The notes below the pieces were generated by a model. That model saw nothing but the letters and a program-made list of their open reading frames with translations, had not been told where the DNA came from and made no database searches. Shown one piece after another: positions 22,496 to 54,577 of a stretch of 64,000 bases of DNA. The translations under genes were made by a program, and so were the position numbers. The DNA is from Pelagicoccus sp. SDUM812005 (GTDB taxonomy: Bacteria; Verrucomicrobiota; Verrucomicrobiia; Opitutales; Opitutaceae), in the NCBI RefSeq assembly GCF_031127875.1, contig NZ_JARXIA010000006.1:62001-126000 (forward strand). The letters are read 5' to 3'. The first letter of the stretch is position 1. Every line of letters begins with the position of its first letter.

Positions 22496-22868
22496 AATTG
22501 TTCACGAGGCGTTTGATGCCTTGCTTCATCTGGGTGACGTTGAAGTTAAGTAAGTACCCTAGATTCAATTTCGATAGTTTTAGGTAGGTGAGTAGCTGCG
22601 CTGTGTGGATGTCGTTTAGTTCGTCCACGACTTTGAGCTCTAGAATGATCTTGGACTCTACGAGTATGTCCAAGCGATAGCCTTCATCGAGTTCTAAGCC
22701 CTTGTATGTTATCGGTTGGACCTTCTGCCGTTCGGTTTTAATTCCCCGCAGAGTAAGCTCATGTACTAGGCAGCGTTCGTAAGTCGATTCAAGAAGTCCA
22801 GGGCCTAGCTCCCTGTGAACCTCAATCGCTGCTCCGATAATTTCAAACGTCAGTTTCTCCGTATCCAT
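22491..22868 (-). CDS. GxxExxY protein (PDDEXK_3 family), copy 1
   Basis: The 125-residue protein has the family motif in [22 protein letters not shown] and a PD-(D/E)xK-like core: [21 protein letters not shown] (Asp at about 64, ELK at about 76-78), then [22 protein letters not shown]. The family (PF13366) has a nuclease-type fold but no established cellular role. The gene sits between the Wza-like and wzz genes, which would otherwise be adjacent. Its start codon touches one AACCGC-type repeat and its stop codon lies in another, inverted copy, so the whole 460-bp unit looks like an insertion. Coding quality looks intact. A second, different copy is at 53032-53421. Confidence 0.9.
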
Positions 22869-25507: not shown

Positions 25508-25690
25508 CGTCGTGTATCGAGCACCTTGTGCGACCCTTGAGGAGCAGAGTGACGAGACAATTTCGCTTGCCGCGTCTCTTCGTGATGACGTTTGGGGCAA
25601 AACGCGACGAAACAATGGGGGAATTGTTAGATGCCCTACGGATGCTTTGCGCTCCTCGAGCGCGGCGAGCGTTCAGGTTGCGGGGTTGGG

Positions 25691-25738
25691 TCAGATTGGC
25701 CTTCGGCCAAGTAGGTGTCGCTGAGCGACGGTAGGTTT
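25691..25738 (+). repeat. Double-hairpin repeat, copy 1
   Basis: Stem 1 TTGGCC-ttc-GGCCAA, spacer GTAGGTG, stem 2 TCGC-tga-GCGA, then CGGTAGGTTT. It is one of eight copies in the window, all in the same orientation. Confidence 0.85.
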
Positions 25739-25881
25739 CGTTCTCTTAATCGCAGAACACAGTTGATTGATCTTCAGGTTTCCAGAGCGAATTGCTGGAC
25801 GCTCTACTCGCCCACCGTCCTTTCACGATCACAGTAATCTGTGGCTTATCCAATTGGGCATCAAATCACTGAGATGATGCA

Positions 25882-26429: not shown

Positions 26430-26954
26430 GATGTCGCTATCTGTTGCACAGTGTCGCTGTTCTGTCAATTTGGAAGGATTCCGTGTCGAAGTCTGGCTGC
26501 GGTAAGGGTTAAGGTTAAGCCGCGGATGAACGCAAATTTTCTGAGAACTCTCATGGGAAGGTCTGATGACCTTTTTGCAAAGGGCAGCCTGATGGCTGCG
26601 GGCGCTTTTGATGGGGTGCTGCTTCGCGGGCGTTGTGCGGTTTGTTCGCGAAATGGGGTCAGGTTGGCCTTCGGCCGAGGAGGTGTCGCGGATCGACGTT
26701 AGGGTTTGTTTTTCACGGCGGAGATTGCCCAACCCAGTCTGCTGGTCGACGCTTGAGGAGTATGGCGACGAGACTATTTGGGATAAATAAATGGGGCAAG
26801 TTTCGGGTCGTTCGTTGGATTGCTCTTGGGTTGAACAGCCGCTCCGTTAGTCTGCTGAAACAACCCAATCTCTCCCTCGGCGAGCTTAGCGTCCTCGGCA
26901 GTTATTTGATCTTCAATGCCAAATCTGCAGTTTTCAATTTGGGCGTTTGCCGAA
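26430..26954. other. Repeat-rich intergenic region
   Basis: No gene beyond the TA promoter. It contains a decayed AACCGC-type repeat (about 26507-26545), a double-hairpin repeat (26658-26708) and a GAGGAG...GACGAGAC piece (about 26754-26775). The last 80 bases before the Wzi gene end have no clear terminator. Confidence 0.55.
26658..26708 (+). repeat. Double-hairpin repeat, copy 2
   Basis: Stem 1 GGCC-ttc-GGCC, spacer GAGGAGGT, stem 2 GTCG-cggat-CGAC, then GTTAGGGTTTG. The stems keep pairing although loops and flanks differ from the other copies. Confidence 0.8.
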
Positions 26955-28550: not shown

Positions 28551-28715
28551 GTGGGGAGTTGTGTACCGGAGCGACACCAACCAGACGTGTCAAAAAGTGG
28601 AGGACTTGGTTTTGATTTAACCACTACCGAGGAACGAAGTGACGACAATCGAGGAGCGAAGCGAAGAGACAATAGACACAGATGGGCACTGATTGTGGTA
28701 ATTCAGGAATGAGGA

Positions 28716-28766
28716 TTGTCAGGTTGGCCTGTGGCCAAATAGGTGTCGCTTTGCGACTTTAGGTTC
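28716..28766 (+). repeat. Double-hairpin repeat, copy 3
   Basis: ATTGTCAGG, stem 1 TTGGCC-tgt-GGCCAA, ATAGGT, stem 2 GTCGC-ttt-GCGAC, TTTAGGTT. Confidence 0.85.
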
Positions 28767-28786
28767 ACTCGCTTCGCGATCATAGA

Positions 28787-32389: not shown

Positions 32390-32411
32390 TGTTTTAAAGA
32401 GTCGTTGTTTC

Positions 32412-33647: not shown

Positions 33648-33664
33648 GCCGGTTCTTAAGCTTT

Positions 33665-35536: not shown

Positions 35537-35537
35537 G

Positions 35538-36674
35538 TTATATGGGCACTCCTGTTTTATTAGAATACAGCAGGCTGTAAAGCGACTGTAGCTTCTTCTC
35601 TTGTGAATTCCACGAATAGTGTTCTTGGACGGACTGGCGCCCTCTTTCGCCTAATTGTGTGCAAAGGCTATCGTCAGTTGCTAGAAGTTTCATTGCTTGA
35701 AATATTTTTATCTGGTCCTCGGGTGGAACGGTTAATCCGCAATCTGCTTTGTCTACGACGGCTCTGTAAAGTGGAAAGTCCGATGTGATGACTGGGATTC
35801 CAATCGACATATACTCAAACAGTTTTGTCGGATATGAGGTAATAAAGTTTTCCTCGCGATCCAGTATTGCTAGCCCGACTTGGCAGCGCGCTATTTGGGG
35901 CCATGCTTCATCGGCTCGGATTCTCCCTGGGGCATTCAGCCAACCCTCGTTGAGTGCTTCCGTAAAATCAGGATCCGAGCTTACTTTTGGGTCGATTGGT
36001 CCGATACACAGAAAAGTGGCTGAAATTCCTGTTTCGCGTAGTCGTTTTACTGCTCTGATTGCAGGGACGATTCCTCGATTGTGCGAAACTGCACCGAGGT
36101 AGCCGAAAGTGAAATCCTTTTGGGGCGATCGCTTGGGGATCGATTCAGTTTTCGGGTAATTTAGAATAGTTACCTTTGAGCTTAGCCAGGTGTAGTTGCT
36201 TTTGTACGAGTTTTCTGCGAAAATAACAAAGTCGCAAAGAGTTAAAATTCGCTCGAAAATTTTGTACAGTAAGTGAATCGAACTCTTTTGGTTAGGCGAT
36301 AGGTAATGCTTGCTTGCGATGTCCTTTGGGACATTCTCATGCATGTCGAATATAACGCTTACTCTCAATGCTTTTAAGAGAGGGATCAGGGTGATTAGCT
36401 CTGGGTCGTGGATGTGAATAATGTCAGGCTTTCTGCGGGTGGAATTGATGGCGAGTGATAATATTCCAGATAAGAAACGCTTGGTCCGGTTTGCTGGTGC
36501 GTCACCAATGCTTTGGATTTTCACTTTCGCGTTGGTTTCAGGTGGTAGGCCATCTTTCACCCACAGTGTGACTGAATATCTATGGTCCTTGGCGAGTGAT
36601 TGACACTCTTTTAAGAGGATCCGAGTGTCGCCTCTCTGGTGTACTGTGGTTGCGTGAACGATATCCATTTTCAC
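35538..36674 (-). CDS. Glycosyltransferase, GT4-like
   Basis: The roughly 378-residue GT-B protein has HATTVHQRGDTRILLKECQS near the N-terminus, DIIHIHDPELITLIPLLKAL, IFDMHENVPKDIASKHYLSP, and the C-terminal YPTKLFEYMSIGIPVITSDF, the acceptor/donor loop of family 4 enzymes. It should extend the lipid-linked repeat unit. A GTG at 36674 or an ATG at 36668 could start it; the former overlaps the stop of the upstream polymerase gene. The sugar transferred is unknown. AT-rich DNA. Confidence 0.85.
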   Translation of the reverse strand: MKMDIVHATTVHQRGDTRILLKECQSLAKDHRYSVTLWVKDGLPPETNAKVKIQSIGDAPANRTKRFLSGILSLAINSTRRKPDIIHIHDPELITLIPLLKALRVSVIFDMHENVPKDIASKHYLSPNQKSSIHLLYKIFERILTLCDFVIFAENSYKSNYTWLSSKVTILNYPKTESIPKRSPQKDFTFGYLGAVSHNRGIVPAIRAVKRLRETGISATFLCIGPIDPKVSSDPDFTEALNEGWLNAPGRIRADEAWPQIARCQVGLAILDREENFITSYPTKLFEYMSIGIPVITSDFPLYRAVVDKADCGLTVPPEDQIKIFQAMKLLATDDSLCTQLGERGRQSVQEHYSWNSQEKKLQSLYSLLYSNKTGVPI

Positions 36675-37924
36675 TATATTGTGCCACGGAAGTGAGAGCG
36701 AATGGTTGGTTTTTGCTCTCGGATTGTCGCAGTCAAGATTGAGAGCGAGGTTGTGAAGAAGAGAGCTCTGTTGTCGTTCAAGTCGCCACTTACCATAGCG
36801 TTTGTTAAGTTAAAGAGGTGAATTGAAAGAATGGTAAGCACGATGGAATTGGGGCACCCTTTTGTATGCGCTGCAATAAGCGACCCGAAGGAATGGGCTA
36901 TCAGTAGGCAAAGCGCGATGAATGGGACTATTCCATATTCAGTGATAACTTCTAGGAATAGATTGTGTGAGTATACTCTGTCTGTTCCGTCTCCTAGTCC
37001 TCCCGCACCAGTGCCTGTTAGTGGATTTGTGTTGATTGCCTCAAGGGATGCGTTGATTAGTGATATTCTCGCAGTGGCGGAGTCGCCCATGCCTGTTTCG
37101 TTGAAAAGTACAGTTATGCGATTGAGGGTGTGGAAGTCGAAGGTAGTCTGTGATTTTAGGGAGCCGATCGCGACAATTAATGCTACTCCAAATAGGCAAC
37201 CGAATCCTATCTGCTCTAGTTTTTGTTTCCCGTGGGATAGTGATGACAAATAATATATTATATTCGCTGCTGTTGTGGTTAACAGTGCGATCAGTGGCAT
37301 TCTTCCGCCAGTTATAAAGGTCGAGGTGGTGAGGCCAATGGTGGCAGCTATTAGTATTGTGAATGCTCCGATTTTACCGGTTGCGAGTGCGACTGTTGAA
37401 AGGCAGATTCCTATGCAGGCTCCGGTTGCGATGAATCTAGAACTCGATAGGTAGTTGATTTCGATAGTCTCTTCTGGGTTGGTAGACTGTTTGTAAAAAT
37501 ATAGAATTGCGTACAAAAGGGCGAGTGCGAATGTCGTGTGTATTATTGCAGATAGTTTTATGTTTCTAACAATGAGAGGGAGGACTAGGATTGGTGTGGT
37601 TATTAAGCAAAAGTTTATGGCTTTGCTTAGGGAATAGATTCCTTGTGGGGACCAAGCGACTGAGGTGGCGACCAAAATTGGTATGGGAGCGAAAAAGGCT
37701 AGTGCAATTATGATTTGCTTTGGGAGTTTTTTCTTTATGGATATGCGTCCGATAGCTGTCGCTGTGCAAAGGACAAGGGCGGCTCCTGTGAAGTCAAAGG
37801 GGAGTAGTGAAAAAGGAGCGACGGCCTTCAACTTTCCTGCAAATACTAGAAGCACGATGGATACTTCGAAGTGTGGGATTTTTGGCAGTCTTATTGCGAG
37901 TTTGGGCCGTTGGAGAGTGCTCAT
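36674..37924 (-). CDS. O-antigen/capsule polymerase, Wzy-like
   Basis: The 416-residue integral membrane protein has about 11-12 spans and little hydrophilic sequence apart from one periplasmic loop. That loop carries GTGAGGLGDGTDRVYSHNLF followed by LEVITEYG, the Wzy_C/WaaL-like motif with its conserved His. It should polymerise repeat units on the periplasmic side together with Wzz. It overlaps the next glycosyltransferase start and begins 6 bases after the previous gene. As usual for Wzy, overall sequence is divergent, so the call rests on topology, motif and context. Confidence 0.85.
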   Translation of the reverse strand: MSTLQRPKLAIRLPKIPHFEVSIVLLVFAGKLKAVAPFSLLPFDFTGAALVLCTATAIGRISIKKKLPKQIIIALAFFAPIPILVATSVAWSPQGIYSLSKAINFCLITTPILVLPLIVRNIKLSAIIHTTFALALLYAILYFYKQSTNPEETIEINYLSSSRFIATGACIGICLSTVALATGKIGAFTILIAATIGLTTSTFITGGRMPLIALLTTTAANIIYYLSSLSHGKQKLEQIGFGCLFGVALIVAIGSLKSQTTFDFHTLNRITVLFNETGMGDSATARISLINASLEAINTNPLTGTGAGGLGDGTDRVYSHNLFLEVITEYGIVPFIALCLLIAHSFGSLIAAHTKGCPNSIVLTILSIHLFNLTNAMVSGDLNDNRALFFTTSLSILTATIREQKPTIRSHFRGTI

Positions 37925-37930
37925 TGTGCC

Positions 37931-39127
37931 CTATATGATGTTGATTGTGCAGCTCCCAGATGATTTGATGATTGCCTCTTCTGTTCTGCAGCGTGTGCTC
38001 CACGGTTTGAAAACCTTTTGCGCAACTTCTTTCGCACTCTTCATTAGTTTTAGTCGTTCCTGCGGTGCTTCGTACAACCGAGCTATCTCGTGAGCTCCTT
38101 GATCGGCGTTCATGATCAATATTGCACTTTTTTTGTTTGCGACGAGCGAGTTTAGGGAGCCATCGTTTCGTGCCATTAAGAGAGCTCCTGTCGCAAGTGC
38201 TTCTATTGCGACGTTACCTAGGTTGGATAGATCGTATAGGGAGAGTGTTGCGAAGGAGGAGCTGTAGGTCTGAATCATTTCTTCTTTATTCAGTCGTTCG
38301 TGGTGTGTGAAGTAAGGGGCAACTCCGAGGTTTTCGGCTTTCTCAAGTAGTTCAGTGTGCCAGCTTTTGTCGTAGATGTGCCCTGCGCAAACCAGCCTGA
38401 ATTTTAAATGATGTATGTGATGAAGCTTTGATAGGATCTCGAGCGCAATATCTTGTCTTTTCCATCTTTCGAGTCTTGCGGGGTAGAAGAGAATTTGCTC
38501 GCCTCTTGGCGTTTTGCTCTCGCGTGAGATGGGTGGAAGATCGACTCCGTTTAGTAGAAAATGAAAACTGTAAAGAGAGTTTCCAATGTTCTTATGAAGT
38601 ATATCGCCTTTGGTGCCATCGTTGGTTATCAGTAGGAATGCTTTTGGCAGGATCAAGGCCAAAGCCTCTAGGGGGTGTTGTAGTAGGGTTTTGAGCAGGG
38701 ATTGTTTTCCTGACTTCTCTGCGAGGAAAGTGCCGTATAGGCGCTGCCCTGCTTTGATGTTGAGTAGTAGGGCTGGAATATTCGCTACGGTGCCGGAGGA
38801 ACCTTGCATATAGACAAAATCATACTTTCGCTTTACCAACGTTTTGGTGACTGTTGCGGTGGCTGAGAGATAAGAGGTAGCACGTGTCAGTGTGCCTTTT
38901 GTTTGAAAGCGGAAAGTTCGGACTTTGCATTTTCCTAACCAATGTTCCCTTGGGAGGGTTATTGTGGAGTTTTTATCGGAAGCAATTAGTAGATCTATCG
39001 AGTGGCTGTGCTCTAGTAGGTGCTTGAGAGGTTTGATGAAGGCAGGCATGCCTGAGGCTTCGGCTTTGTTTTCCAATAGAATATCTTTCAACCCACTCCA
39101 GAAGGCTGTGACGTAGAGTATGCGCAT
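37931..39127 (-). CDS. Glycosyltransferase, GT4-like
   Basis: The 398-residue protein begins MRILYVTAFWSGLKDILLEN. It has a GT-B layout with RGEQILFYPARLERWKRQDI (inter-domain region), FRLVCAGHIYDKSWHTELLE, and NLGNVAIEALATGALLMARN, where the second Glu of the EX7E-type motif would lie. It probably adds another sugar to the repeat unit. It ends 6 bases before the Wzy gene and follows the WbpG-like gene by 7 bases, so it belongs to the same transcript. Specificity is unknown. Confidence 0.83.
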   Translation of the reverse strand: MRILYVTAFWSGLKDILLENKAEASGMPAFIKPLKHLLEHSHSIDLLIASDKNSTITLPREHWLGKCKVRTFRFQTKGTLTRATSYLSATATVTKTLVKRKYDFVYMQGSSGTVANIPALLLNIKAGQRLYGTFLAEKSGKQSLLKTLLQHPLEALALILPKAFLLITNDGTKGDILHKNIGNSLYSFHFLLNGVDLPPISRESKTPRGEQILFYPARLERWKRQDIALEILSKLHHIHHLKFRLVCAGHIYDKSWHTELLEKAENLGVAPYFTHHERLNKEEMIQTYSSSFATLSLYDLSNLGNVAIEALATGALLMARNDGSLNSLVANKKSAILIMNADQGAHEIARLYEAPQERLKLMKSAKEVAQKVFKPWSTRCRTEEAIIKSSGSCTINII

Positions 39128-39134
39128 AGTGGGA

Positions 39135-40271
39135 TTATGTGGTTCTCTTTCTTTTCAGGTGAAGGTCTAGTGCGGTTTCGTAGATGAATTTGTGAATCTT
39201 ATGGTTGTGGTATCCTTTGTAATCTTTGTATGATTTTATGGGAGTCTTCATTATCTTCTCAAAGCTCTCCTCGTCTAGATCTAGTTTCTTGATAACGAAT
39301 TCCTTGTCCTCTCGGAGCATCGCTTCGTTGGGGTATGGAGACTTTTGGAGGTTCTGGAGAGCGTCATTTCTAGACATCTCGCCCATGCAGATTAGGTTGG
39401 AGTGGTGTGCTCGTCGTTTGTCGAAGCCGAATTTTATGGGTTGTATATACCCTTGTGTGAAGCGTGTGTAAATAGATTCGTAGTGCTTTCCACCGTAGTA
39501 AACCCAGCCAAGCTCGTTCTGGATCGTTTGCATTGCTTCCGTCTTACTGAAAGGGATCAAGTCGAGCAGGTTGATTACGATGTGTTTGTTTAGTAGACGC
39601 GTGCGATAAAGATCCAGTCGCGTCATTCTTGGGTAGGTTTTTAAGGGGGAGTTTTCGAACTGTTTGTGTATGTTCTTTATGAGTAGCCAATCCATCTGGC
39701 CGACCATTTCCGACCACGCAGGATCCATTATATGTTCCATGCGAAAATTGGACCCGTTTATTATATAGCGAGTGCCAAACTTAATGGCCGATTTGTTGAG
39801 TAGTGCATATATGGCATGGTCGGTTGGGATCTCCATGCCTGGTATTGATGCCTTTAGGAATGAGAGTTGTAGGTCTTTGAATTCGTTCCAGTCGATGACA
39901 TGCGTGTACAGGTCGATGTCTAGCTTATTTAAAGTGTTCTCAATGTTTTTTACTGCTAATTGAGAGTTCCATCCGTTGTCTAGGTGTACTGCAATAGGTC
40001 TAAGGCCAAGCTCTTTTGCTTTGTAGGCGGTATAGGTGCTGTCCACGCCTCCGCTTACTCCGATTACGCAATCGTACTGTTTTCCTTTTCCTTCTCGCTG
40101 GATTTGTGTGACCCATCGGTTGAGGGTGGAGCCTGAACTGTCTACAATTTTTCCTTCCTTATCGTGGAAGGAATTGCAGAAATTGCATGTGCCATCGGTG
40201 TTTGCCTGTATGCTTGGTGCGGTTGAGTCCATGACGCAACGATTGCATATAAAATAGTCTGCACTTTTCAT
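39135..40271 (-). CDS. wbpG: N-acetyl sugar amidotransferase WbpG-like
   Basis: The 378-residue ATP-pyrophosphatase-type enzyme has an N-terminal zinc-like knuckle (CNRCVMDST ... CNFC), PP-loop GVSGGVDSTYTAYKAKELGL, PIAVHLDNGWNSQLAVKNIE, and the family C-terminal half with MGEMSRNDALQNLQ. In Pseudomonas O antigen synthesis and in pseudaminic/legionaminic acid pathways this family, fed ammonia by HisH/HisF homologues, turns an N-acetyl group into an acetamidino group. The hisF and hisH homologues are directly upstream (overlap ATGA with hisF). The target is most likely ManNAc3NAcA, given the wbp genes. Confidence 0.92.
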   Translation of the reverse strand: MKSADYFICNRCVMDSTAPSIQANTDGTCNFCNSFHDKEGKIVDSSGSTLNRWVTQIQREGKGKQYDCVIGVSGGVDSTYTAYKAKELGLRPIAVHLDNGWNSQLAVKNIENTLNKLDIDLYTHVIDWNEFKDLQLSFLKASIPGMEIPTDHAIYALLNKSAIKFGTRYIINGSNFRMEHIMDPAWSEMVGQMDWLLIKNIHKQFENSPLKTYPRMTRLDLYRTRLLNKHIVINLLDLIPFSKTEAMQTIQNELGWVYYGGKHYESIYTRFTQGYIQPIKFGFDKRRAHHSNLICMGEMSRNDALQNLQKSPYPNEAMLREDKEFVIKKLDLDEESFEKIMKTPIKSYKDYKGYHNHKIHKFIYETALDLHLKRKRTT

Positions 40272-41023
40272 TGGTTAATTCTTTTGAGCTGATCTCTTTC
40301 TGGATAATTTATCAGTACTGATCTATGGGGGCCGTGGTATACGAATATACTTCCTGCGGCGGCACTGCAATTGAGTGAAAATACATTTTCTGCTTCTTTG
40401 TAATTGCTCGCTCCTCCATTTGCGATGATTGGAATGGAAACGAGTTGTCGTACGTTTTCGATTAATTGAAGATCGTAACCTTTGTAGGTGCCTTCTCTAT
40501 TTATTGACGTGATGACTAATTCACCAACGCCAAGATCTTCAACTGATCTGACATAATCCGCTAGGGGAACGTTTATCTTCCTTTTTCCAGAGTGTGTGTA
40601 GGCTGCTTGCTTTCCAAATAAGCTTTGTTTTACGTCTATGGAGGCAACAATGCTTTGATTGCCAAATGACCTAGCCGCTTCCTTCGTGAGTGAGGGGTTT
40701 AGTGCAAGGCTAGAGTTTAGGATCACCTTTTCGATTCCAAGAGAGAAAATCTGTTCGATTTGGGCTATTGTCGTAATTCCACCCCCGTAGGAAAGAGGGA
40801 AGAAGCACTCGTTGGTGATAGATTTTATGAAATTGAAATCAGGTCCTCTATTTTTGGTTGATGCATCGATATCGAGTACGGCGATTTCATCGACTTCCTT
40901 TTCGTTGAAGATCTTTAAGGTGTTTATCGGATCGCCAATGTAGCGCGGCTTGCTAAATTGAATCGTTTTTACGAACCCTCGATCTTTGTACAGTAGGGTT
41001 GGAATCAGTCGTTTCTCAAACAT
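40268..41023 (-). CDS. hisF: HisF-like cyclase subunit for sugar amidination
   Basis: The 251-residue TIM barrel starts MFEKRLIPTLLYKDRGFVKT and has EIAVLDIDASTKNRGPDFNF, LSYGGGITTIAQIEQIFSLG, VASIDVKQSLFGKQAAYTHS and PIIANGGASNYKEAENVF. It matches the second HisF class found in surface-sugar clusters rather than the histidine operon, and none of the other his genes are here. With HisH it supplies ammonia to the WbpG-like enzyme. The start at 41023 overlaps the hisH end by 8 bases; a longer frame lacks family sequence. Confidence 0.92.
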   Translation of the reverse strand: MFEKRLIPTLLYKDRGFVKTIQFSKPRYIGDPINTLKIFNEKEVDEIAVLDIDASTKNRGPDFNFIKSITNECFFPLSYGGGITTIAQIEQIFSLGIEKVILNSSLALNPSLTKEAARSFGNQSIVASIDVKQSLFGKQAAYTHSGKRKINVPLADYVRSVEDLGVGELVITSINREGTYKGYDLQLIENVRQLVSIPIIANGGASNYKEAENVFSLNCSAAAGSIFVYHGPHRSVLINYPERDQLKRINQ

Positions 41024-41669
41024 CGGAAATCCAATCGATGAAGTTGCGGAAAAATAACTTCCCATGTTTGTGGCTTTTTTCGGGGTGGAACTGTGCGGCG
41101 AGAATATTTTCTTTTATAAAACCGGATATGAATGTTGTACCGTAGGTAGTTGTTGCGGATTGTAGTGTTTCGTTCGGTTTGATTAATCCGTATGAGTGTA
41201 CGAAATAGAAGCGAGCGTTATCTAGCCCTTTGAATAAGCCCTGTACGGTGTCTGTGCGAATGCGGTTCCATCCCATGTGGGGGATGATCATGGATTCTCC
41301 ATTGTGTTCTCTTGGCAATTTTTTGATGGAAGCATCGATCCATTTTAGACCGGGGCAGGAGCCTTCTTCTGAGTCGTTGCACATGAGCTGCATGCCTAAG
41401 CAAATACCAAGTATTGGAGTTTTGTTTTTGAGTACGGCCCTTGTAAGGGGTTCTTCGAACCCAAGGTTTCGAAGTCGTGTGATGCCGTGGTCGAACCTGC
41501 CTACTCCCGGCAGCACTAAAGCGTTGTATCGCTCAATATGCTGATGATCTTTGATACGTTCAGCTTTTCCTCCTACGGACTTGATTATGTTTATTATTGA
41601 TCCTGTGTTTCCAATGCTAAGATCCAGAACGCCGACGGTTGTTTGCTTTGTGTCGATGGCTGTGTTCAT
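41016..41669 (-). CDS. hisH: HisH-like glutamine amidotransferase for sugar amidination
   Basis: The 217-residue class I glutamine amidotransferase has the nucleophile Cys in PILGICLGMQLMCNDSEEGS and the catalytic His-Glu in AAQFHPEKSHKHGKLFFRNF, with VGVLDLSIGNTGSIINII at the N-terminus. It partners with the HisF-like barrel, as shown by the 8-base overlap. It begins after a 139-bp gap holding a T9/G8 tract (41695-41711), so this may be the head of its own transcript. That would make the amidination trio separately adjustable. Confidence 0.92.
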   Translation of the reverse strand: MNTAIDTKQTTVGVLDLSIGNTGSIINIIKSVGGKAERIKDHQHIERYNALVLPGVGRFDHGITRLRNLGFEEPLTRAVLKNKTPILGICLGMQLMCNDSEEGSCPGLKWIDASIKKLPREHNGESMIIPHMGWNRIRTDTVQGLFKGLDNARFYFVHSYGLIKPNETLQSATTTYGTTFISGFIKENILAAQFHPEKSHKHGKLFFRNFIDWISDV

Positions 41670-41694
41670 TGTTTGGTGGTTGGTGTCGGGTTGC

Positions 41695-41711
41695 TTTTTT
41701 TTTGGGGGGGG
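41695..41711. promoter_or_regulatory. Homopolymer tracts T9 and G8 upstream of hisH
   Basis: Nine T directly followed by eight G (A9/C8 in the transcribed direction) lie 26-42 bases before the hisH start codon, in the only sizeable gap (139 bp) of this part of the operon. Such tracts change length by slippage and could vary promoter spacing or leader length. Confidence 0.5.
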
Positions 41712-41808
41712 TATTTGCGGGGGAAATAGTTTGGACTAGGTGCATTGCTTTTGGATTGGTTTCCGCGAAAATAAAGCTTTTTCGGCATAGGAGCGTGTGT
41801 TGAGTTTT

Positions 41809-43143
41809 TTATACTATGTTTATTAGTAACAGTATTATGGGAGGTAGGCTTGCTAGGCAGTTTAGCGGTGTTGTTGATTTTGTTAGGCTAAGTAAATATA
41901 GTGAGTAGAGGTACCAGACAATTGAGCCTGAGATGGAGTATACGAGGATTGTGGTTTCTAGGGAGGATCCGATAAGTATTGGTATTGTGAATGACCCTAC
42001 GCGCTGGATGTAGAGAATGATGGAAAAGTATAGAGAGAACTCTTGTTTGTTGCATACCCAAACCAAGGCAGAAAGAGGAGCTGCAATTAGTTGGTAGGCA
42101 GTTGCGGTAATTAAATATTGAGAAAGTAGGCCCGCTCTGGCCCAATTCTCTCCAAATACTATAGCAAATAAATTCTCTCCGAATAGGAGTAGTACGACAG
42201 TTAGTGGGATCGAGATTGCCGAGAGACTGCGGTAGGTCTTTTGAGTGAGTTGAGAGAGTTGTTCTGGAGTGTCTTTTAGATCGTTTGCCCTTTTGTAGAA
42301 AACTTGGCCTGTAGCTTGCGCTATGACGGATACAGGAAGTGATATTACCCGTTGGCTAAGGCTGATGAGGCCGGAGGTAGCGCTGTCGAATAGTATCGTA
42401 GCCAAGAAAATTGGGGAGTTTGCCGAAGTTGTGTTTAACAAGTCTGCCCATAGGTCGAACTTTGGGAATTTTGAATGTTTCCGAGCTGTCTCTCGGAGCT
42501 TATTTATGTTTTGGGTTTCGCTTAGGAAAAGGTGTCTCAGTATCTTTGAATCCTTTATTAAGGGTATGATGGAAAGGGCTGTAGACAGGGTTTGGGCTAG
42601 TGTAAGGCTGAGTCCTGTTGGCCATTTGATACCTGTAAGTATTGATGTTCCTGCTCTAGCGGTTGACTGGGTTATGGTGGATTTTGCTATGGAGTTGTAG
42701 CCATTTTGACTGTTCTGATAATTTGTCAGTATCGAAACGACTGAAGTCGATAGCGCGAGAACGGGAATCAATAGTGCAACTGAGATTGGAATGTCACTTG
42801 GAAGTGCATTCGTATACCATAAAAGTGGTAGAATAGTTAGGAAAACGATAAAAGAAATCGCCGCCAGACTTAGCGCTAGTTGCACTAGTCGTATCTTTTC
42901 GATTCTTGTGTTCGTAGTGACGATTGCAAATTGATAGCGTAGAGTCGAAAAGACTGCTAATGATGCAGCTGTGGAAGCCGCGAAGGCAGCTACTCCAAAG
43001 GCATCGGGAGAGTACAGTCTGGTGAGGGCCACATTGGAGAGCAGGGCTATTATTTGTGCTGCGGTTGTGCTGCTAGCCAGTTTCGCTATATTCGAGAGAA
43101 ATGCTCGGTTGTTTGAAGAAGAGCTCACTCGGTTCGGAATCAA
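41809..43143 (-). CDS. Oligosaccharide flippase, Wzx-like
   Basis: The 444-residue protein has about 12-14 membrane spans and the polysaccharide-synthesis MATE/MOP pattern: NIAKLASSTTAAQIIALLSNVALTR at the N-terminus, LISLSQRVISLPVSVIAQAT in the middle and conserved charged loop residues (YKRANDLKDTPEQLSQLTQK). It should flip the lipid-linked repeat unit across the inner membrane. The first codon is a TTG at 43143. This gene is among the most AT-rich in the window. It lies 39 bases after the epimerase gene and before the hisH gap. Confidence 0.88.
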   Translation of the reverse strand: MIPNRVSSSSNNRAFLSNIAKLASSTTAAQIIALLSNVALTRLYSPDAFGVAAFAASTAASLAVFSTLRYQFAIVTTNTRIEKIRLVQLALSLAAISFIVFLTILPLLWYTNALPSDIPISVALLIPVLALSTSVVSILTNYQNSQNGYNSIAKSTITQSTARAGTSILTGIKWPTGLSLTLAQTLSTALSIIPLIKDSKILRHLFLSETQNINKLRETARKHSKFPKFDLWADLLNTTSANSPIFLATILFDSATSGLISLSQRVISLPVSVIAQATGQVFYKRANDLKDTPEQLSQLTQKTYRSLSAISIPLTVVLLLFGENLFAIVFGENWARAGLLSQYLITATAYQLIAAPLSALVWVCNKQEFSLYFSIILYIQRVGSFTIPILIGSSLETTILVYSISGSIVWYLYSLYLLSLTKSTTPLNCLASLPPIILLLINIV

Positions 43144-43182
43144 AGGGTGTTTATTGTGGCTTTTGAGAATGGAAAGAAGGCC

Positions 43183-44277
43183 TCAGTCACAGTGTTCGAG
43201 CAAGTGACTCAAAATTTTTATTGAAGCGTTTCCCGTGCCGTATTCGTCTATGGTTTTCTTGTGTTTGGATGGACCTGTTGCTTTTAAACTTTCAAGAATA
43301 CGATTCTTGCTTGCTCCTGCGAGTTGATTCCAGCCAGCGGTCACGGTTTCAATCCATTCCGTTTCGTCTCTTAGTGTTATGCATTCTGTTTTGTGGAAGT
43401 ATGCTTCTTTTTGCATGCCGCCCGAATCGGTTAGGACGGCTATGGCGTTCTTAATCAGAATCTGTGTGTCGAGGTAAGATGTCGGAGGGATTATTAGGAC
43501 ATCCTTATTGAATTTGAGTTGGTGTTTCGTGAGTGCAATATCTGTTCTCGGATGGATAGGAAGCACAATTGTGTGGTTGCTAGAAAGTTCGTTTATAGCG
43601 GATACAATTTCCGCCAGCCTTGAATTGTTGTCGGTGTTTTCTGCTCTGTGGATGGTTGCGAAGATGAAGCTAGAAGCAGATAGGTTGAGGCTGCGGAGGG
43701 TCTTGCTTTGACTCTCTGCCTGTTTGGTGAAAGCGAGCGTGGCGTCGTACATTACATCACCGACAGGATGAACGCCCTTTGTGATTCCTTCCTTATGCAA
43801 GTTTGTTACCGATGCAGTTGTAGGACAGAAAAGCAGTGTCGAAACGTGATCGGTGAGAACCCGGTTTATTTCTTCGGGCATTTGTCTGTTGAATGAGCGT
43901 AGGCCAGCTTCTACATGGGCGACTGGAATGTGAAGCTTTGCGGCGGCAAGCGCCCCTGCGAGGGTCGAATTGGTATCGCCGTACACTAAAAGCATGTCCG
44001 GCGAGGAGTCTATAAGATGTTCTTCAATTGCTTTTAACATCTCGCCTGTCATCTGCCCGTGTGTGCCGCCCCCCAGTTTAAGGTTCTTTGTTGGCTTGGG
44101 GATTTTTAGTTCCTCGAAGAATATGGAACTCATTCTCTCGTCGTAGTGCTGTCCTGTGTGTATAATGTTTTCAATTATTTTATTATCGTTGTTGGCGTTG
44201 TGATCAACGATGGCTTTACTGACGGCGGCAGCCTTGATAAACTGTGGTCGAGCTCCGACGATTGTAGTAAGTCTCAT
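43183..44277 (-). CDS. wbpI: UDP-N-acetylglucosamine 2-epimerase family, WbpI-like
   Basis: The 364-residue non-hydrolysing epimerase has MRLTTIVGARPQFIKAAAVS, HTGQHYDERMSSIFFEELKI, VYGDTNSTLAGALAAAKLHI, HVEAGLRSFNRQMPEEINRV and DSGGMQKEAYFHKTECITLR, all family motifs. WecB acts on UDP-GlcNAc. In the wbp pathway WbpI epimerises UDP-GlcNAc(3NAc)A to UDP-ManNAc(3NAc)A, and the neighbouring wbpE, D, B and A homologues make that the likely substrate. It follows wbpE by 25 bases. Confidence 0.9.
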   Translation of the reverse strand: MRLTTIVGARPQFIKAAAVSKAIVDHNANNDNKIIENIIHTGQHYDERMSSIFFEELKIPKPTKNLKLGGGTHGQMTGEMLKAIEEHLIDSSPDMLLVYGDTNSTLAGALAAAKLHIPVAHVEAGLRSFNRQMPEEINRVLTDHVSTLLFCPTTASVTNLHKEGITKGVHPVGDVMYDATLAFTKQAESQSKTLRSLNLSASSFIFATIHRAENTDNNSRLAEIVSAINELSSNHTIVLPIHPRTDIALTKHQLKFNKDVLIIPPTSYLDTQILIKNAIAVLTDSGGMQKEAYFHKTECITLRDETEWIETVTAGWNQLAGASKNRILESLKATGPSKHKKTIDEYGTGNASIKILSHLLEHCD

Positions 44278-49050: not shown

Positions 49051-49090
49051 CATTAACCGCTGAGTACGCTAGGGGCACGGAGTTTTGGTG
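49051..49090 (+). repeat. AACCGC-type dispersed repeat
   Basis: ATTAACCGCTGAGTACGCTAG then GGGCACGGAGTTTTGG. Immediately abuts double-hairpin copy 4. Confidence 0.7.
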
Positions 49091-49140
49091 GTTAGGTTGG
49101 CCAGCGGCCAAATAGGTGTCGCTGGGCGACGTGAGGTTTG
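49091..49140 (+). repeat. Double-hairpin repeat, copy 4
   Basis: GTTAGG, stem 1 TTGGCC-agc-GGCCAA, ATAGGT, stem 2 GTCGC-tgg-GCGAC, GTGAGGTTTG. Confidence 0.85.
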
Positions 49141-49231
49141 TTTTTTGTCACCAAGATGCGCGAAGAGTCGGGTTGTATCTGGCCTTCGCTACAACGAAGG
49201 CGGTCGCGTAATGTGTGGTTGTTTCGGGGAG

Positions 49232-49280
49232 GAATTGTCAGGTCGGCTTCGCCGAGCAGGTGCCTACGGCACGTAGGGTG
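49232..49280 (+). repeat. Double-hairpin repeat, copy 5 (most divergent)
   Basis: ATTGTCAGG, stem 1 TCGGC-ttc-GCCGA, GCAGG, stem 2 TGCC-tac-GGCA, CGTAGGGTG. Both stems differ in sequence from the other copies yet still pair, which is strong evidence that the folded form matters. Confidence 0.8.
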
Positions 49281-49341
49281 GGGGGAGTTTGGGTTCTGCG
49301 ACGGAGGATGTTTGGGTGGAAATTGGGTGGCCCATGGGGAG

Positions 49342-49737
49342 TCAAATCCAGGGCCAGAGGCGTAGGCCGGGGATTTTTCGGAAATGCTGGTCGAAGGTGA
49401 CCAAAGTGGAGCCCGATTCGATGCAGGCACTGGCGATCCAGATGTCGTTTATGGGAATTGGGCTACCGGCGCGTTTGAGCTGGTCTTGGGTTTCGCCGTA
49501 TATCTGTGCGGTCTCCAGGGTTGGGAGCCAGAAATCGACAGTGGGTTTGTTCAAGAAGGCTTTGAGCTGACTTAGGTTTTCTTGGAGTTTGCTGCCGCCT
49601 CGAAAACCGTAGTGGAGTTCGCCGATCACGAACAGGGGCAGGTACACGGTGGTTGCGCTGGCAAGGGTGTCGAGGACCTTTTCGTCGCCCTTCATGAAGG
49701 CGCTGTAGGCATTGGTGTCTAAGGTGATCTTTGCCAT
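49342..49737 (-). CDS. vapC: VapC-type PIN-domain toxin
   Basis: The 131-residue PIN RNase has first Asp in ITLDTNAYSAFMKGDE, Glu in FVIGELHYGFRGGSKLQENL, later Asp residues in PIPINDIWIASACIESGSTL and the VTFDQHFRKIPGLRLW end. All are VapC hallmarks. VapC toxins cut tRNA or rRNA. The antitoxin gene ends on the base before its ATG. This module marks the outer edge of the polysaccharide operon region, next to double-hairpin repeats. Confidence 0.92.
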   Translation of the reverse strand: MAKITLDTNAYSAFMKGDEKVLDTLASATTVYLPLFVIGELHYGFRGGSKLQENLSQLKAFLNKPTVDFWLPTLETAQIYGETQDQLKRAGSPIPINDIWIASACIESGSTLVTFDQHFRKIPGLRLWPWI

Positions 49738-49998
49738 CTACCGCTCCCAGTCGCTGGAATTGACAGTCTGAACTTTGCTCGTGCGCTCGTCGAAGGCTGA
49801 TGCGTCCTCTTGGGACCAGCTGCCGAAGAGGTCGGTGAAGTCGGATCTGTGGTCTTCTATTGCCTTTCTGTCCAAGCCCAAGCTGGTGCGTAGGATGGAT
49901 TTCACTGTTCGGTTGAGCGAGGTTCCGTCTCTGCGGGCTCGCTTTTCGAGTTGCTCGGCCAGATCAGCATCTAGTTTGTGAATTGTGATTGATTTCAT
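49738..49998 (-). CDS. vapB: Ribbon-helix-helix antitoxin of the VapC module (FitA-like)
   Basis: The 86-residue protein has MKSITIHKLDADLAEQLEKR then ARRDGTSLNRTVKSILRTSL, the FitA/Arc ribbon-helix-helix fold. An acidic C-terminal toxin-binding tail follows (SDFTDLFGSWSQEDASAFDE). The stop is immediately followed by the vapC start. Upstream is a 7-bp inverted repeat (49998-50027) that begins at the start codon and is a good operator candidate. Confidence 0.9.
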   Translation of the reverse strand: MKSITIHKLDADLAEQLEKRARRDGTSLNRTVKSILRTSLGLDRKAIEDHRSDFTDLFGSWSQEDASAFDERTSKVQTVNSSDWER

Positions 49999-50027
49999 GG
50001 TTCATGAATGGATGAAGGAGTGAACCA
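49998..50027. promoter_or_regulatory. Inverted repeat at the vapB start, candidate operator
   Basis: Perfect 7-bp arms TGGTTCA (49998-50004) and TGAACCA (50021-50027) separated by 16 bases, covering the region just before the vapB ATG. Antitoxins of this kind bind such repeats to repress their own operon. Confidence 0.65.
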
Positions 50028-50356
50028 CGTCAATGTTTCTGCATAGTCTGGCTTTCTGGAGGACAGCGGGGTGGCGCTTACGGGGAGTGTCAGGTTGGCC
50101 TGCGGCCAATTAGGTGTCGCTGGGCGACGAGAAGTTTTCTAGCCACGGATTTCACAGAGGACAGGGAAGGATGAGGGGGCATGCGAATCGGTTTTGGTAT
50201 GGGTCGTCGCCTGAGGGTTGATTCTGCAGGGCGGACGGAGTGGCATCCGCCGCTCCAAGAAAGTGGAGAGGGGTTTTACCTTCGATTTGGGATTTTATAT
50301 TTTCAATAGCGAGTGGTGCGAATGCCTTTGGAGTTGCCTTGGTGGGGCTTTGTTAG
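50028..50356. other. Intergenic region before the epimerase gene
   Basis: Contains double-hairpin repeat copy 6 (50087-50138) and otherwise no recognisable gene. The promoter of the plus-strand epimerase gene should lie between about 50230 and 50350, but none stands out. Confidence 0.45.
50087..50138 (+). repeat. Double-hairpin repeat, copy 6
   Basis: GTGTCAGG, stem 1 TTGGCC-tgc-GGCCAA, TTAGGT, stem 2 GTCGC-tgg-GCGAC, GAGAAGTTTT. Confidence 0.85.
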
Positions 50357-51736: not shown

Positions 51737-51938
51737 GTTGAGCAGGGAGGAAAAGGGGGAGTTTCTCCAGGATTCGCTTTCGGAGGACCGTCGGGAGGAG
51801 TTTCGGGCCTTGGAGGCGGGGGCGAGAAGGCCGTTGTCGGTGGAGGAGCTGAACGCGTTTTTGAATTGGGCTCAGCAATTTATGACGAAGGATGTTTCGA
51901 AGCGAGGTCCGATAAGGGGAGACCGGTTTTTGCTGTAG
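51729..51938 (+). CDS. Small helical partner protein of a degraded nucleotidyltransferase pair
   Basis: The 69-residue charged helical protein (MARLSREEKGEFLQDSLSED) starts with GTG, preceded by GGAGG 7 bases upstream. It overlaps the stop of the collapsed nucleotidyltransferase frame, as would be expected of a coupled two-gene module. I do not recognise a characterised family. Because the first gene is destroyed, this one is probably a leftover, although its own frame is undamaged. Confidence 0.6.
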   Translation: MARLSREEKGEFLQDSLSEDRREEFRALEAGARRPLSVEELNAFLNWAQQFMTKDVSKRGPIRGDRFLL

Positions 51939-51980
51939 GGGCGGAAGGTTGGCCTTAGCGACCGCGAGCTTGGCTTGAAG

Positions 51981-52052
51981 ATTCGGCGTGCCCGGCGGTC
52001 ACGCCCTACCTTCATTCGGGACTCGGGGTGTCCGGCGGTTGCGGCCTACCTT
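51981..52052. repeat. Tandem pair of GGTAGGGCG-type repeats
   Basis: Two units start 40 bases apart (51981 and 52021): ATTCGGCGTGCCCGGCGGTC then ACGCCCTACC, and ACTCGGGGTGTCCGGCGGTT then GCGGCCTACC. The second overlaps the stop codon of the fcl gene (minus strand GGTAGGCC). A related fragment is at 12029-12053. Confidence 0.6.
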
Positions 52053-52996
52053 TGGCGGAGACTGCCTTGCTCCAGCTGCTCGAGGAAGAGGGGGTAGGTT
52101 TTTTCGATGCCTTCTTCGAGGGGGATCTGGGCGGTCCAGCCGAGATCGCGCAGGCGGGAGACGTCCATGAGCTTGCGGGGGGTGCCGTCGGGCTTGCTGA
52201 GGTCGTTGACGATCTGGCCGGTGTAGCCGACGGTCTTTGCTACGAGTTCGGCGATTTGCTTGATGCTGTGCTCGACGCCGGTGCCGGCGTTCAAGATGCT
52301 GGGTGGGTCTTGTAGTTGAAGGGCGAATACTATGGCGTCGGCTAGGTCGTCGGCGTGCATGAGCTCGCGCAGGGGAGTTCCGGTTCCCCACATGGTGACT
52401 TCGGGGGCCTGGGCTTCCTTGGCTTCGTGGAAGCGGCGGATGAGGGCGGGCAGGAGGTGGGAGTTGTCGGGGTGGTAGTTGTCGCCGGGGCCGTAGAGGT
52501 TGGTGGGCATGAGGGAGTGGTAGAGGACTCCGTATTGCTTGCGGTAGTACTCGCAGAGCTTGAGGCCGGCGATCTTGGCGATGGCGTAGGCTTCGTTGGT
52601 GGGCTCCAGCGGGGAGGTGAGCAGGCAGTCCTCGCGCAGGGGTTGGGGCGCCAGCTTGGGGTAGATGCAGGAGGAGCCAAGGAAGAGGAATCTGGATACG
52701 CCGCTCTGGTAGGCGGCGTGAATGGTATTGCTGGCGATGGCTAGGTTCTGGTAGCCGAAGTCGGCGGGGTAGGTATTGTTAGCGTGGATACCGCCGACTT
52801 TGGCGGCGGCCATGACCACGACGTCGGGCTGGTGGGCTTGGAAGAAGGCTTCGACGTCGGCTTGGCGGGTGAGGTCGAGCTCGGAGGAGGATGCAGTGAT
52901 CGTGTTAGTGAAGCCGAGGGCGTGGAGGCGACGGATGACGGCGGAGCCGACCATGCCGTTGTGGCCGGCGACGTAGATCTTGGAAGAGGGAGTCAT
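52046..52996 (-). CDS. fcl: GDP-L-fucose synthase
   Basis: The 316-residue SDR starts [20 protein letters not shown] and has the family segment [40 protein letters not shown] with the catalytic Ser, and [20 protein letters not shown] (YxxxK). It converts GDP-4-keto-6-deoxy-mannose to GDP-L-fucose by epimerisation and reduction. It is downstream of gmd but separated from it by the second GxxExxY cassette. Its last codons and stop lie in a GGTAG-type repeat. Confidence 0.94.
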
Positions 52997-53005
52997 GTGA
53001 GACGG

Positions 53006-53060
53006 GAATTGTCAGGTCGGCCTGCGGCCGATTAGGTGTCGCTGCGCGACGGTAGGTTTG
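53006..53060 (+). repeat. Double-hairpin repeat, copy 7, left border of GxxExxY cassette 2
   Basis: AATTGTCAGG, stem 1 TCGGCC-tgc-GGCCGA, TTAGGT, stem 2 GTCGC-tgc-GCGAC, GGTAGGTTTG. It contains the last nine or so codons and the stop of the GxxExxY gene. Confidence 0.88.
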
Positions 53061-53421
53061 GGTGGTAGGCTCTTTTGACTTGGAGCTTGGGGGCGCCGAA
53101 GTTGAGGAGCAGGCCGGTTTGGAGGTTTGCGGCTTTGATGTAGTTAATAAGTTGGGCGTGGTGTTCTGGTGCTAGGGCGGTTAGTGCCTTGAGTTCTAGG
53201 ATGAGAGTGTCGTCGACTAGGATGTCGGCGAAAAATTCTCCAACTAGATGACCTCGGAAGTGCACGTCTATGGGGTGCTGTTGAGAGACTTTGAAACCGT
53301 CTTCGGTGAGAGCGATGGCGAGACTGTTCTCAAATATCTTCTCGTTGAAACCGTGTCCTAGCTCGGCATGAACTTGGTGGGCGATGGTTATGATTTTGGA
53401 CGTAACAGGGTCTTGGATCAT
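53032..53421 (-). CDS. GxxExxY protein (PDDEXK_3 family), copy 2
   Basis: The 129-residue protein has the family motif as VHAELGHGFNEKIFENSLAI (Phe in place of the usual Tyr) and the nuclease-like core HLVGEFFADILVDDTLILEL then KALTAL, followed by HHAQLINYIKAANLQTGLLL. It differs clearly from copy 1 at 22491, so it is not a recent duplicate. It lies between gmd and fcl, two genes normally adjacent. Direct copies of the double-hairpin repeat stand on both sides: copy 8 is 20 bases before the start codon, and copy 7 supplies the C-terminal residues and stop. No cellular function is established for the family. Confidence 0.9.
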   Translation of the reverse strand: MIQDPVTSKIITIAHQVHAELGHGFNEKIFENSLAIALTEDGFKVSQQHPIDVHFRGHLVGEFFADILVDDTLILELKALTALAPEHHAQLINYIKAANLQTGLLLNFGAPKLQVKRAYHPNLPSRSDT

Positions 53422-53440
53422 GAGGGAGTTGGGTTCTGGG

Positions 53441-53492
53441 GATTGTCAGGTTGGCCTGCGGCCAAATAGGTGCCGCGGGGCGGCAGAGGTTC
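53441..53492 (+). repeat. Double-hairpin repeat, copy 8, right border of GxxExxY cassette 2
   Basis: GATTGTCAGG, stem 1 TTGGCC-tgc-GGCCAA, ATAGG, stem 2 TGCCGC-ggg-GCGGCA with overlapping pairing options, GAGGTTC. Same orientation as copy 7. Confidence 0.85.
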
Positions 53493-53563
53493 TTATTTGA
53501 ATAACCTTCTCGACGAAGTCGACCTACTTTGGCGAAAGCCAAACCTGACCATGCAGGCCGCGC

Positions 53564-54577
53564 CTAAGCGAGGGCCTTTTTGATTTTGGCTTCGTCTTGG
53601 GCGAGCTTGAGGTCGGCGTCGACCATGATCTTGACGAGCTCCTTGAACTTGACCTTGGGCTCCCAGCCGAGCTGCTTCTTGGCCTTGGCGGGGTCGCCGA
53701 TGAGCAGGTCCACCTCGGCGGGGCGCTCGTAGCGGTCGTCGTAGTCGACGTACTTTTCCCAGTCGAGGTCGAGCAGGGCAAAGGTCTCTTGCACGAACTC
53801 CTTGACGGTGTGGGTCTCGTTGGTGGCGATGACGTAGTCGTCGGGCTGGTCTTGCTGCAGCATGAGCCACATCATCTCGACGTACTCCTTGGCGTAGCCC
53901 CAGTCGCGCTTGGCGTCTAGGTTGCCGAGGTAGAGCTTGTCCTGTAGGCCCATCTTGATGCGAGTGGCGGCCCGCGTGATCTTGCGGGTGACAAAGGTTT
54001 CGCCGCGGCGGGGGGACTCGTGGTTGAAGAGGATGCCCGAGCAGGCGAAGAGGTTGTAGGACTCGCGGTAGTTTACGGTGAGCCAGTGGGCGTACATCTT
54101 GGCGCAGCCGTAAGGCGAACGCGGCCAGAAGGGAGTGGTCTCGGTCTGGGGAACTTCTTGGACCTTGCCGAACATTTCCGAGGAGGAGGCTTGGTAGTAT
54201 TTGGTCTTGTTGACGAGCTTGGCTTCGCGGATCGCTTCGAGGATGCGTACCGAGCCGACGCCGACGACGTCGCCGGTGTACTCGGGCACGTCGAAGGAAA
54301 CGCGGACGTGGGACTGGGCTCCGAGGTTGTAGATCTCGTCAGGCTGGAGATCGTAGAGCAGCTTGACCATCTGTACGGAGTCGGCGAGGTCGCCGTAGTG
54401 CAGGAAGAGCTTAACGCCGTTGACGTGCGGGTCTTGGTAGAGGTGGTCGATGCGGGAGGTGTTGAAGGTGGAGGCCCGGCGGATAACGCCGTGGACTTCG
54501 TAACCCTTTTCTAGGAGGAGTTCTGCGAGGTAGGATCCGTCTTGTCCTGTGATGCCGGTGATGAGGGCTTTTTTCAT
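53564..54577 (-). CDS. gmd: GDP-mannose 4,6-dehydratase
   Basis: The 337-residue SDR has [60 protein letters not shown], the catalytic [20 protein letters not shown] with [19 protein letters not shown], and [19 protein letters not shown]. These are near-invariant Gmd motifs. It makes GDP-4-keto-6-deoxy-D-mannose for Fcl. The ATG at 54577 begins the conserved sequence; an upstream extension of the frame is unrelated. Its message probably reads through the GxxExxY cassette into fcl. Confidence 0.95.

Follow-up and report, generated by a model that had tools for sequence, protein, structure and literature searches.

Among described systems, the intervening sequences of 23S rRNA genes, as found in Coxiella and Leptospira, are one of those closest to the locus presented here. 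According to the portion of PMC4990558 on which we draw, these sequences contain one small open reading frame (for the four-helix-bundle protein S23) between inverted ends, occur sporadically, are removed by RNase III, and have an unclear origin and mobility; a pentameric ring is also reported there for a Xanthomonas relative. REP/BIME palindromes and their RAYT transposases, for which the available portion of PMC3733652 gives GTAG and CGTC families, offer another point of comparison. Four-helix-bundle genes located between cas genes have been presented as an associated function (PMC3936711, in the portion available), and a GxxExxY gene has appeared as the neighbor of a reverse transcriptase labeled CRISPR-like (PMC8934634, likewise in part). 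The name of the latter family (TIGR04256 / PF13366) denotes a motif, not a function.

We analyzed a 64,000-nt stretch of DNA (the window; G000:C85:62001-126000) from a 6.65-Mb draft genome (G000), in which a GxxExxY gene with hairpin repeats separates gmd from fcl. As in the 23S rRNA intervening sequences, one small open reading frame is placed between inverted ends, and inverted repeats arranged on the same plan flank PF05635 genes of this phylum. The window gene differs in belonging to another family, of predicted nucleases, in occupying an operon gap rather than rRNA, and in having hairpin arrays rather than one long stem. Shared with REP/BIME are short hairpins with a common tag, head-to-head dimers, and a structure kept by compensatory change; here, however, the tag is AGGT at steps of about 20 nt, coupled to a clade of GxxExxY proteins, and no triple AGGT array stands in the flanks (at most 1.5 kb) of the Y1_Tnp genes.

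Anatomy of the insert

The gene product is, by its profile scores, a clear GxxExxY / PDDEXK_3 family member, reaching 130.2 bits against TIGR04256 (cut-off 35) and 126.6 bits against Pfam PF13366 (cut-off 22). PDDEXK_3 was the only Pfam family found in it, with no match to the S23 four-helix bundle. The gene lies in the middle of gmd, GxxExxY, and fcl, all three on the minus strand, and is the sole gene recognized within the 539-bp unit (Table 1).

Table 1. Positions of the insert, its repeats, neighboring genes, and other features discussed (window coordinates unless a contig is given).
Feature	Position	Strand	Basis or remark
Whole insert between fcl and gmd, 539 bp: TIR-R2, GxxExxY gene, TIR-R1, TIR-L	53011..53549	-	sequence, junction comparison
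Right-hand double-hairpin repeat (TIR-R2), AGGT words at 53014, 53034, 53054	53011..53059	+	repeat search, folding
GxxExxY (PDDEXK_3) gene, 129 aa	53032..53421	-	ORF and family profiles; predicted Cas4/lambda-exonuclease-like nuclease
Left-hand double-hairpin repeat (TIR-R1), direct relative to 53011-53059	53445..53492	+	repeat search, folding
TIR-L, the inverted double-hairpin arm at the outer end on the gmd side	53503..53549	-	sequence
fcl, GDP-L-fucose synthase, downstream host gene	52046..52996	-	483.6 bits, under model cut-off of 500
gmd, GDP-mannose 4,6-dehydratase, upstream host gene	53564..54574	-	family profile; start set at ATG, frame itself open to 54742
AGGT double-hairpin copy	25681..25745	+	repeat search
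AGGT double-hairpin copy	26649..26713	+	repeat search
AGGT double-hairpin copy	28709..28773	+	repeat search
AGGT double-hairpin copy, with diverged neighbor at 49228-49297	49082..49146	+	repeat search
AGGT double-hairpin copy	50080..50144	+	repeat search
GxxExxY gene of the window's first cassette (wz locus)	22503..22868	-	flanking inverted repeats
Integron-integrase-like genes	G000:C43:1207-2163, G000:C65:687-1649, G000:C23:2213-2965		two above family cut-off, third below and with a stop

Read in the orientation of gmd, the insert consists of TIR-L (GTCAGG...AAGGTT, 53549-53503), TIR-R1 (AACCTC...CCTGAC, 53492-53445), the gene, and TIR-R2 (AAACCTACC...CCTGAC, 53059-53011). TIR-L and TIR-R1 together form a 105-bp palindrome with four hairpins (53445-53549). 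An earlier note on this DNA had described the gene as flanked by direct repeats, and two direct double-hairpin copies are indeed present at the gene, each folding into two hairpins; the left copy, however, is half of the palindrome, and the outer ends of the insert are inverted. Because that palindrome ends at 53549, the insert spans 53011-53549. The same note had the repeat encoding the end of the protein, which agrees with the core of the right-hand copy overlapping the nine final codons, the stop codon among them. The AGGT word occurs three times per arm at steps of about 20 nt (20/20, 20/19, and 21/18 in three arms), with the hairpins between.

Seven double-hairpin copies, all on the plus strand, were found in the window, with matches starting at 53002 and 53436 for the two at the gene and at the start positions in Table 1 for the other five. 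For the core pattern, seven matches compare with an expectation of 0.32, and none of 100 shuffles reached seven. The eighth, diverged copy was matched by a repeat model, R1 (E 0.014), whose matches rest mainly on sequence, its structure being one column out of register. The genome search with R1 scored 150 of 1,778 first-look candidates, and a pattern search was added for that reason. By pattern, the 6.6-Mb genome has eight copies, seven of them within one 28-kb stretch of the window; the remaining one lies in contig C118, where a similar head-to-head palindrome stands without a gene. The core pattern was present in 7 of 141 genomes (the host genome included), of which six belong to this genus and one, with a single match carrying two mismatches, to another. 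Across 19 copies found in the genus, pairing was intact in 98.6% of pair cells, and two-sided changes in the hairpin stems numbered 11 against 2.6 after shuffling; judged from these alignments, the double hairpins are maintained by compensatory change.

Direct AGGT double hairpins also bracket toxin-antitoxin genes, namely ParE (25882-26166) with an RHH antitoxin (26163-26432) between the copies at 25681-26713, and a PIN toxin (49342-49737) with a FitA-like antitoxin (49738-49998) between those at 49082-50144. Copies in genome G003 (L104 11098-12581) bracket what by eye is an apparent DUF433/DUF5615-type pair. The other GxxExxY cassette of the window is flanked by inverted repeats of 9-nt words (~22457-22489 and 22870-22908), so that the two cassettes differ in repeat type (9-nt words at 22.5 kb and hairpins at 53 kb). 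An Rfam search of the whole window gave no match. A further palindromic repeat, recognized by eye, lies 3' of fcl (51936-52045); it is of GTAG type and distinct from the AGGT family. Midway through the polysaccharide region, over positions 32001-44000, G+C content drops to 44-47% from surrounding values of 53-64%, which may reflect recently acquired genes.

A predicted nuclease under purifying selection

The AlphaFold2 model of the window protein (pLDDT 93.2, pTM 0.86) had Cas4 SSO0001 (E 2.6e-4, TM 0.51 by query), LHK-Exo, lambda exonuclease, and MGME1 as its best PDB folds in Foldseek, with AdnAB and AddAB also matched. Similarity was moderate, and four matches reached E <= 0.001; a PDB sequence search with the protein returned no relative at E 1. 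Residues E27, D66, Q90, and Y94 were invariant in 80 GxxExxY sequences, while E76 and K78 were conserved in at least 90%. We take these E, D, E-x-K, and Q-x-x-x-Y residues to have catalytic roles, and the protein is predicted from its fold to be a Cas4/lambda-exonuclease-like PD-(D/E)XK nuclease with its active-site set kept. Searches of defense and phage protein libraries gave no match for this protein or for one four-helix-bundle protein.

Ten of 14 GxxExxY pairs yielded a dN/dS value (0.02-0.13), with all ten having dS > 1, so that the ratios are rough. The remaining four pairs were synonymously saturated with pN well below pS, including the window gene and its orthologue in genome G004 (pN 0.167, pS 0.760). 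These substitution patterns clearly indicate that the GxxExxY protein is kept by purifying selection. Horizontal replacement, judged by synonymous change in GxxExxY beyond that of flanking genes, was not convincing: GxxExxY ranked highest or close to it, yet strong divergence was also found in wz and rfb genes.

Recurrent occupation of gene junctions

We compared the gmd-fcl junction across 18 genomes in which the two genes are adjacent (in 2 of 20 stretches there was no fcl beside gmd). The host genome and G004 have an orthologous cassette with 72-73% protein identity. By eye, the G004 cassette has the same order of parts and different hairpin sequences, and a repeat word supplies the stop codon there too; the joint between gene and repeat is thus old, as the note had suggested. 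Other members of the genus differ: G007 has a divergent GxxExxY (41% identity) with quite different end repeats, G006 a four-helix-bundle gene, G005 an inverted repeat without a gene, G003 a solo repeat end, G002 an empty junction of only 33 bp, and G001 a 101-bp gap lacking any clear element. Beyond the genus, six junctions measured 8-29 bp and four 93-354 bp, and a 19th genome, from another genus (G030), carries a four-helix-bundle gene. The junction therefore varies between species, as the earlier note had anticipated, with empty, gene-less, and differently occupied forms within the genus in place of one arrangement common to all relatives; its proposal that gene and repeats form one unit is likewise supported. 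The excision scar that it envisaged, a single AGGT copy left between gmd and fcl, was seen by eye in none of the seven other species of the genus. The insert at 53011-53549 is a recurrent, unit-like one, and the junction has been occupied repeatedly by different lineages. Within the 354-bp gmd-fcl gap of another genome (L116, G012:C1:402000-410000), three nested inverted word-repeat elements were recognized by eye, and these could reveal the target sequence of an insertion.

Similar recurrence was found elsewhere. Among eight species of the genus, seven have GxxExxY at the leuB-alaS junction, representing three lineages or more that differ in their end words; by eye, those of G002 and G006 contain in-frame stops, and the eighth species, G001, has a 143-bp gap with no GxxExxY. 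The gene has been retained there through speciation in G000, G003, and G007. Starred branches separate the leuB-alaS genes of this genus from those of genus g3 in a tree built from 99 proteins, which means that the site was occupied on two occasions or more; in the same tree, the gmd-fcl gene of G007 has a long branch and an unsure placement. The gatA-gatB junction holds GxxExxY in 17 of 101 labeled loci (a labeling in which two leuB-alaS genes were entered twice), representing many genera (e.g., L047, L048, and L138). Eleven of these 17 genes fall in one clade together with one other row, and from this tree gatA-gatB may be an old, vertically kept insertion. Apart from gatA-gatB, leuB-alaS, and gmd-fcl, the neighbors of GxxExxY are scattered.

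Homology between elements at different loci was limited to the unit in two of the pairs examined closely (three among the matches listed). In genome G038, a 467-bp stretch (82.9%) is common to two loci, and its limits fall no more than about 20 bp from the outermost words; two loci from different genomes (L194 and L198) have 433 bp in common, stopping at the words. In the third pair (L127 and L167), a 70% shared stretch ends at the words on one side only.

End repeats in two protein families

We assessed how general such end repeats are by scoring 300-bp flanks, a repeat being counted when better than in all 60 shuffles. Inverted repeats flanked 78 of 92 GxxExxY loci sampled at the level of genus, family, and order and 27 of 30 four-helix-bundle loci, against 1 of 30 gmd and 0 of 23 fcl control flanks. 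Direct repeats were found at 22 of the same 92 GxxExxY loci and either kind at 82, the window locus being among the direct-only ones. Its score was 8.5 in the simple inverted-repeat test, under the shuffle maximum of 12.5, and 21.0 in the direct test, above the maximum of 15.5. It exceeds shuffles in just the direct test, because its outer arms share words and not hairpin sequence: words and hairpin layout are common to both arms, with no significant inverted alignment. A wider GxxExxY set, drawn from named genomes of more than 15 phyla by their titles (mostly other phyla, with a few Verrucomicrobia) and picked by likeness to the window's clade, gave inverted repeats at 61, direct at 26, and either at 65 of 70 usable loci among 80. 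A second, phylum-wide four-helix-bundle set gave inverted repeats at 22 of 28. Rows dropped were 1 of 93 GxxExxY (flank too short), 10 of 80 in the wider set, 1 of 29 in the new four-helix-bundle set, and 7 of 30 fcl controls (three not found, four too short). The first GxxExxY set comprised, of about 150 places, 30 loci and 60 more in rough score order; the GxxExxY samples are high-scoring loci and include orthologues (17 at gatA-gatB). GxxExxY was found in 100 of 141 genomes of the genus, family, and order, and the four-helix-bundle family in 139 of 194 genomes sampled from the phylum (130 over cut-off); the host genome has no four-helix-bundle gene.

The arms are runs of similar short words, with about three words in GxxExxY elements (by eye) and four or five in 51 of the 80 four-helix-bundle arms counted (36 of 116 gave no count). 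The best self-match lag was 8-10 nt in 84/86 and 60/66 GxxExxY elements and 7 or 14 nt in 24/26 and 23/26 four-helix-bundle elements, these counts excluding elements with arm scores below 12 or short flanks (13/99, 13/79, 4/30, and 2/28, the window's element included). No comparable lag was seen when the top chance matches from gmd and fcl flanks were taken with 10 nt added per side. The period is thus linked to the protein family, and the repeat type follows family and subfamily rather than genome or site, to judge from the distribution of words. Of 96 elements classed at both ends, 89 had the same word class at each (shuffled mean 30, maximum 43), with the class being unassignable for 55 of 178 elements. 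On the protein tree, whose resolution is poor (17 starred branches among 124 inner ones), word class required 31 changes, compared with 69 on average and no fewer than 62 after shuffling; restricted to relatives, the figures were 20 changes, a shuffled mean of 36, and a shuffled minimum of 31. The GAA class (six rows) did not cluster. One locus of the wider set (L219) is the same gene as L160 and was excluded from the word-class, tree, period, and wider-set orientation counts. By eye, the window gene, its G004 orthologue, and their nearest relatives (L160 and L147) all lie in hairpin arrays, which in this small clade belong to three sequence families of like layout. An association of word type with protein clade would also be expected from simple co-inheritance. 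The left and right arms of GxxExxY elements match also at positions that differ between words (0.84 vs 0.92), and stem pairing may be under selection besides word recognition.

Orientation, target sites, and carriers

Between co-directional neighbors, GxxExxY was in sense orientation at 52 loci and antisense at 6 (93 loci in total). The same bias appeared in the wider set (43 sense vs 6 antisense of 79, or 32 vs 6 of 63 without recurrent sites) and for four-helix-bundle genes (31 vs 4 of 58), with neighbor orientation being taken from a greedy longest-ORF caller, not curated genes. Among 121 elements other than the window's own, target-site duplication left no signal in adjacent 3-mers (1 vs 2.5 expected), and there were two adjacent 6-mers where the null maximum was one. 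MITEs and small insertion sequences resemble the GxxExxY elements in the terminal inverted repeats prevailing in the family and in gene-less derivatives, and are unlike them in that the latter lack this duplication signal and have ends made of repeated words, with GxxExxY the sole gene recognized in the 539-bp window unit. Carriage by plasmids or phages was rejected: at E 1e-5, only 8 of 72,556 plasmid records matched the window's other GxxExxY protein, all below 60% identity, and none of 50,697 phage records matched the 53032-53421 protein.

Explanations for the insert

We consider it probable (about 0.6) that the stretch 53011-53549 represents a widespread type of small mobile element, with a nuclease gene between terminal repeats of short words. 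The element would have entered the gap between two genes of a host operon in the sense direction, probably making use of host transcription. The GxxExxY protein may recognize the words of its own ends, and cutting or end processing by this nuclease could start copying or moving of the unit via host repair, a route that would leave no detectable target-site duplication. An unrelated four-helix-bundle family, known from the 23S rRNA intervening sequences, would be carried by elements of the same plan with 7-nt words. Since these elements share the plan without a nuclease, the mover may instead be an enzyme of the host or one acting in trans; both kinds of element could share such a trans-acting enzyme, and Y1 transposases as well as two integron-integrase-like genes are present in the genome.

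A broader reading, which we offer tentatively and hold to be slightly short of an even chance, is that both families belong to an undescribed superclass of elements in which one small protein lies between repeats of about three to five short words. The family would dictate the period (7 nt for the four-helix bundle, 9-10 nt for GxxExxY, and hairpin units, here of 20 nt, in the window's clade), the word would co-evolve like a recognition code, and the rRNA intervening sequences would be rare rRNA-inserted members. By analogy, the four to five words per four-helix-bundle arm might speculatively correspond to a pentameric ring with one word per subunit. If this is true, a single explanation covers both families, neither of which has an assigned function: they would be passengers or drivers of very small mobile elements. 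There is then also a testable frame for how rRNA intervening sequences move, with the period rule a sharp prediction for protein-repeat binding. It would also be a warning about guilt by association, as four-helix-bundle genes among cas genes and the GxxExxY gene beside a reverse transcriptase may be inserts; for the former, an insert is the simpler reading. The open literature on both families, terminal repeats, and Verrucomicrobia, represented mostly by titles and abstract openings with subscription journals mostly outside, contains no apparent description of such elements. The end repeats of GxxExxY relatives in many phyla and of the second family, with a spacing typical of each, suggest that a class of very small mobile elements has been overlooked, although a prior description is possible.

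Several features of the insert could arise at the RNA level, if the end repeats paired in the operon transcript and RNase III excised the insert, which would then be tolerated, with the proteins as passengers or RNA binders. The inverted ends, the strong sense bias in operons, and the matching of GxxExxY arms outside the words are consistent with this, as is the same plan for the protein of the 23S intervening sequences, for which RNase III removal is reported (PMC4990558, in the portion available). The fixed word period per protein family and the repetition of words within an arm are left unexplained, however, the window's outer arms have little in common beyond words and hairpin layout, and excision accounts for tolerance more than for movement. 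We regard it as rather unlikely as the explanation, and it may be compatible with a mobile element. More improbable is that GxxExxY is a useful host gene (e.g., for repair or defense), self-regulated via its flanking repeats, inherited vertically at favored sites, and occasionally lost. Low dN/dS, persistence at gatA-gatB, and gene decay in G002 and G006 (in-frame stops, by eye) agree with it, and persistence at leuB-alaS under purifying selection fits a useful host gene as well as a mobile element. Against it stand the different lineages, even an unrelated gene family, at one junction, the unit-limited homology at two loci of one genome with neighbors otherwise scattered, and the defense library, which held no match.

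The double hairpins with a common motif, together with the head-to-head palindromes at 53445-53549 and in contig C118, recall REP/BIME-type palindromes spread by a host RAYT (Y1 transposase), with GxxExxY caught between two of them by chance. Five Y1_Tnp genes are present in the genome, and copies without GxxExxY exist, some around toxin-antitoxin genes. Yet no triple AGGT array was found at the five Y1_Tnp loci (flanks <= 1.5 kb), one of which has just two lone AGGT pairs about 20 nt apart, and the genome has just eight copies by pattern, seven of which fall in one 28-kb stretch. The nearest relatives of the window gene (L160 and L147) have, by eye, different hairpin repeats in the same layout, and other GxxExxY genes have word repeats, which ties the repeats to the gene and not to one REP family; spread by a RAYT with chance capture of the gene seems improbable. 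We give very little weight to an integron-like cassette array with the repeats as attC-like sites for an integron integrase. Toxin-antitoxin genes are typical integron cassette cargo and are bracketed here by direct copies, and two genes in the genome score above the integron-integrase cut-off. The attC consensus is RYYYAAC...GTTRRRY, and no such site was found in the window or the integrase stretches by a simple scan run without a positive control. Host genes lie between the repeat copies, and beside the integrases there is no AGGT array, just two lone AGGT pairs about 20 nt apart. Arrays of another word, CGCAGAT, follow the first two integrase-like genes (G000:C43 and G000:C65).
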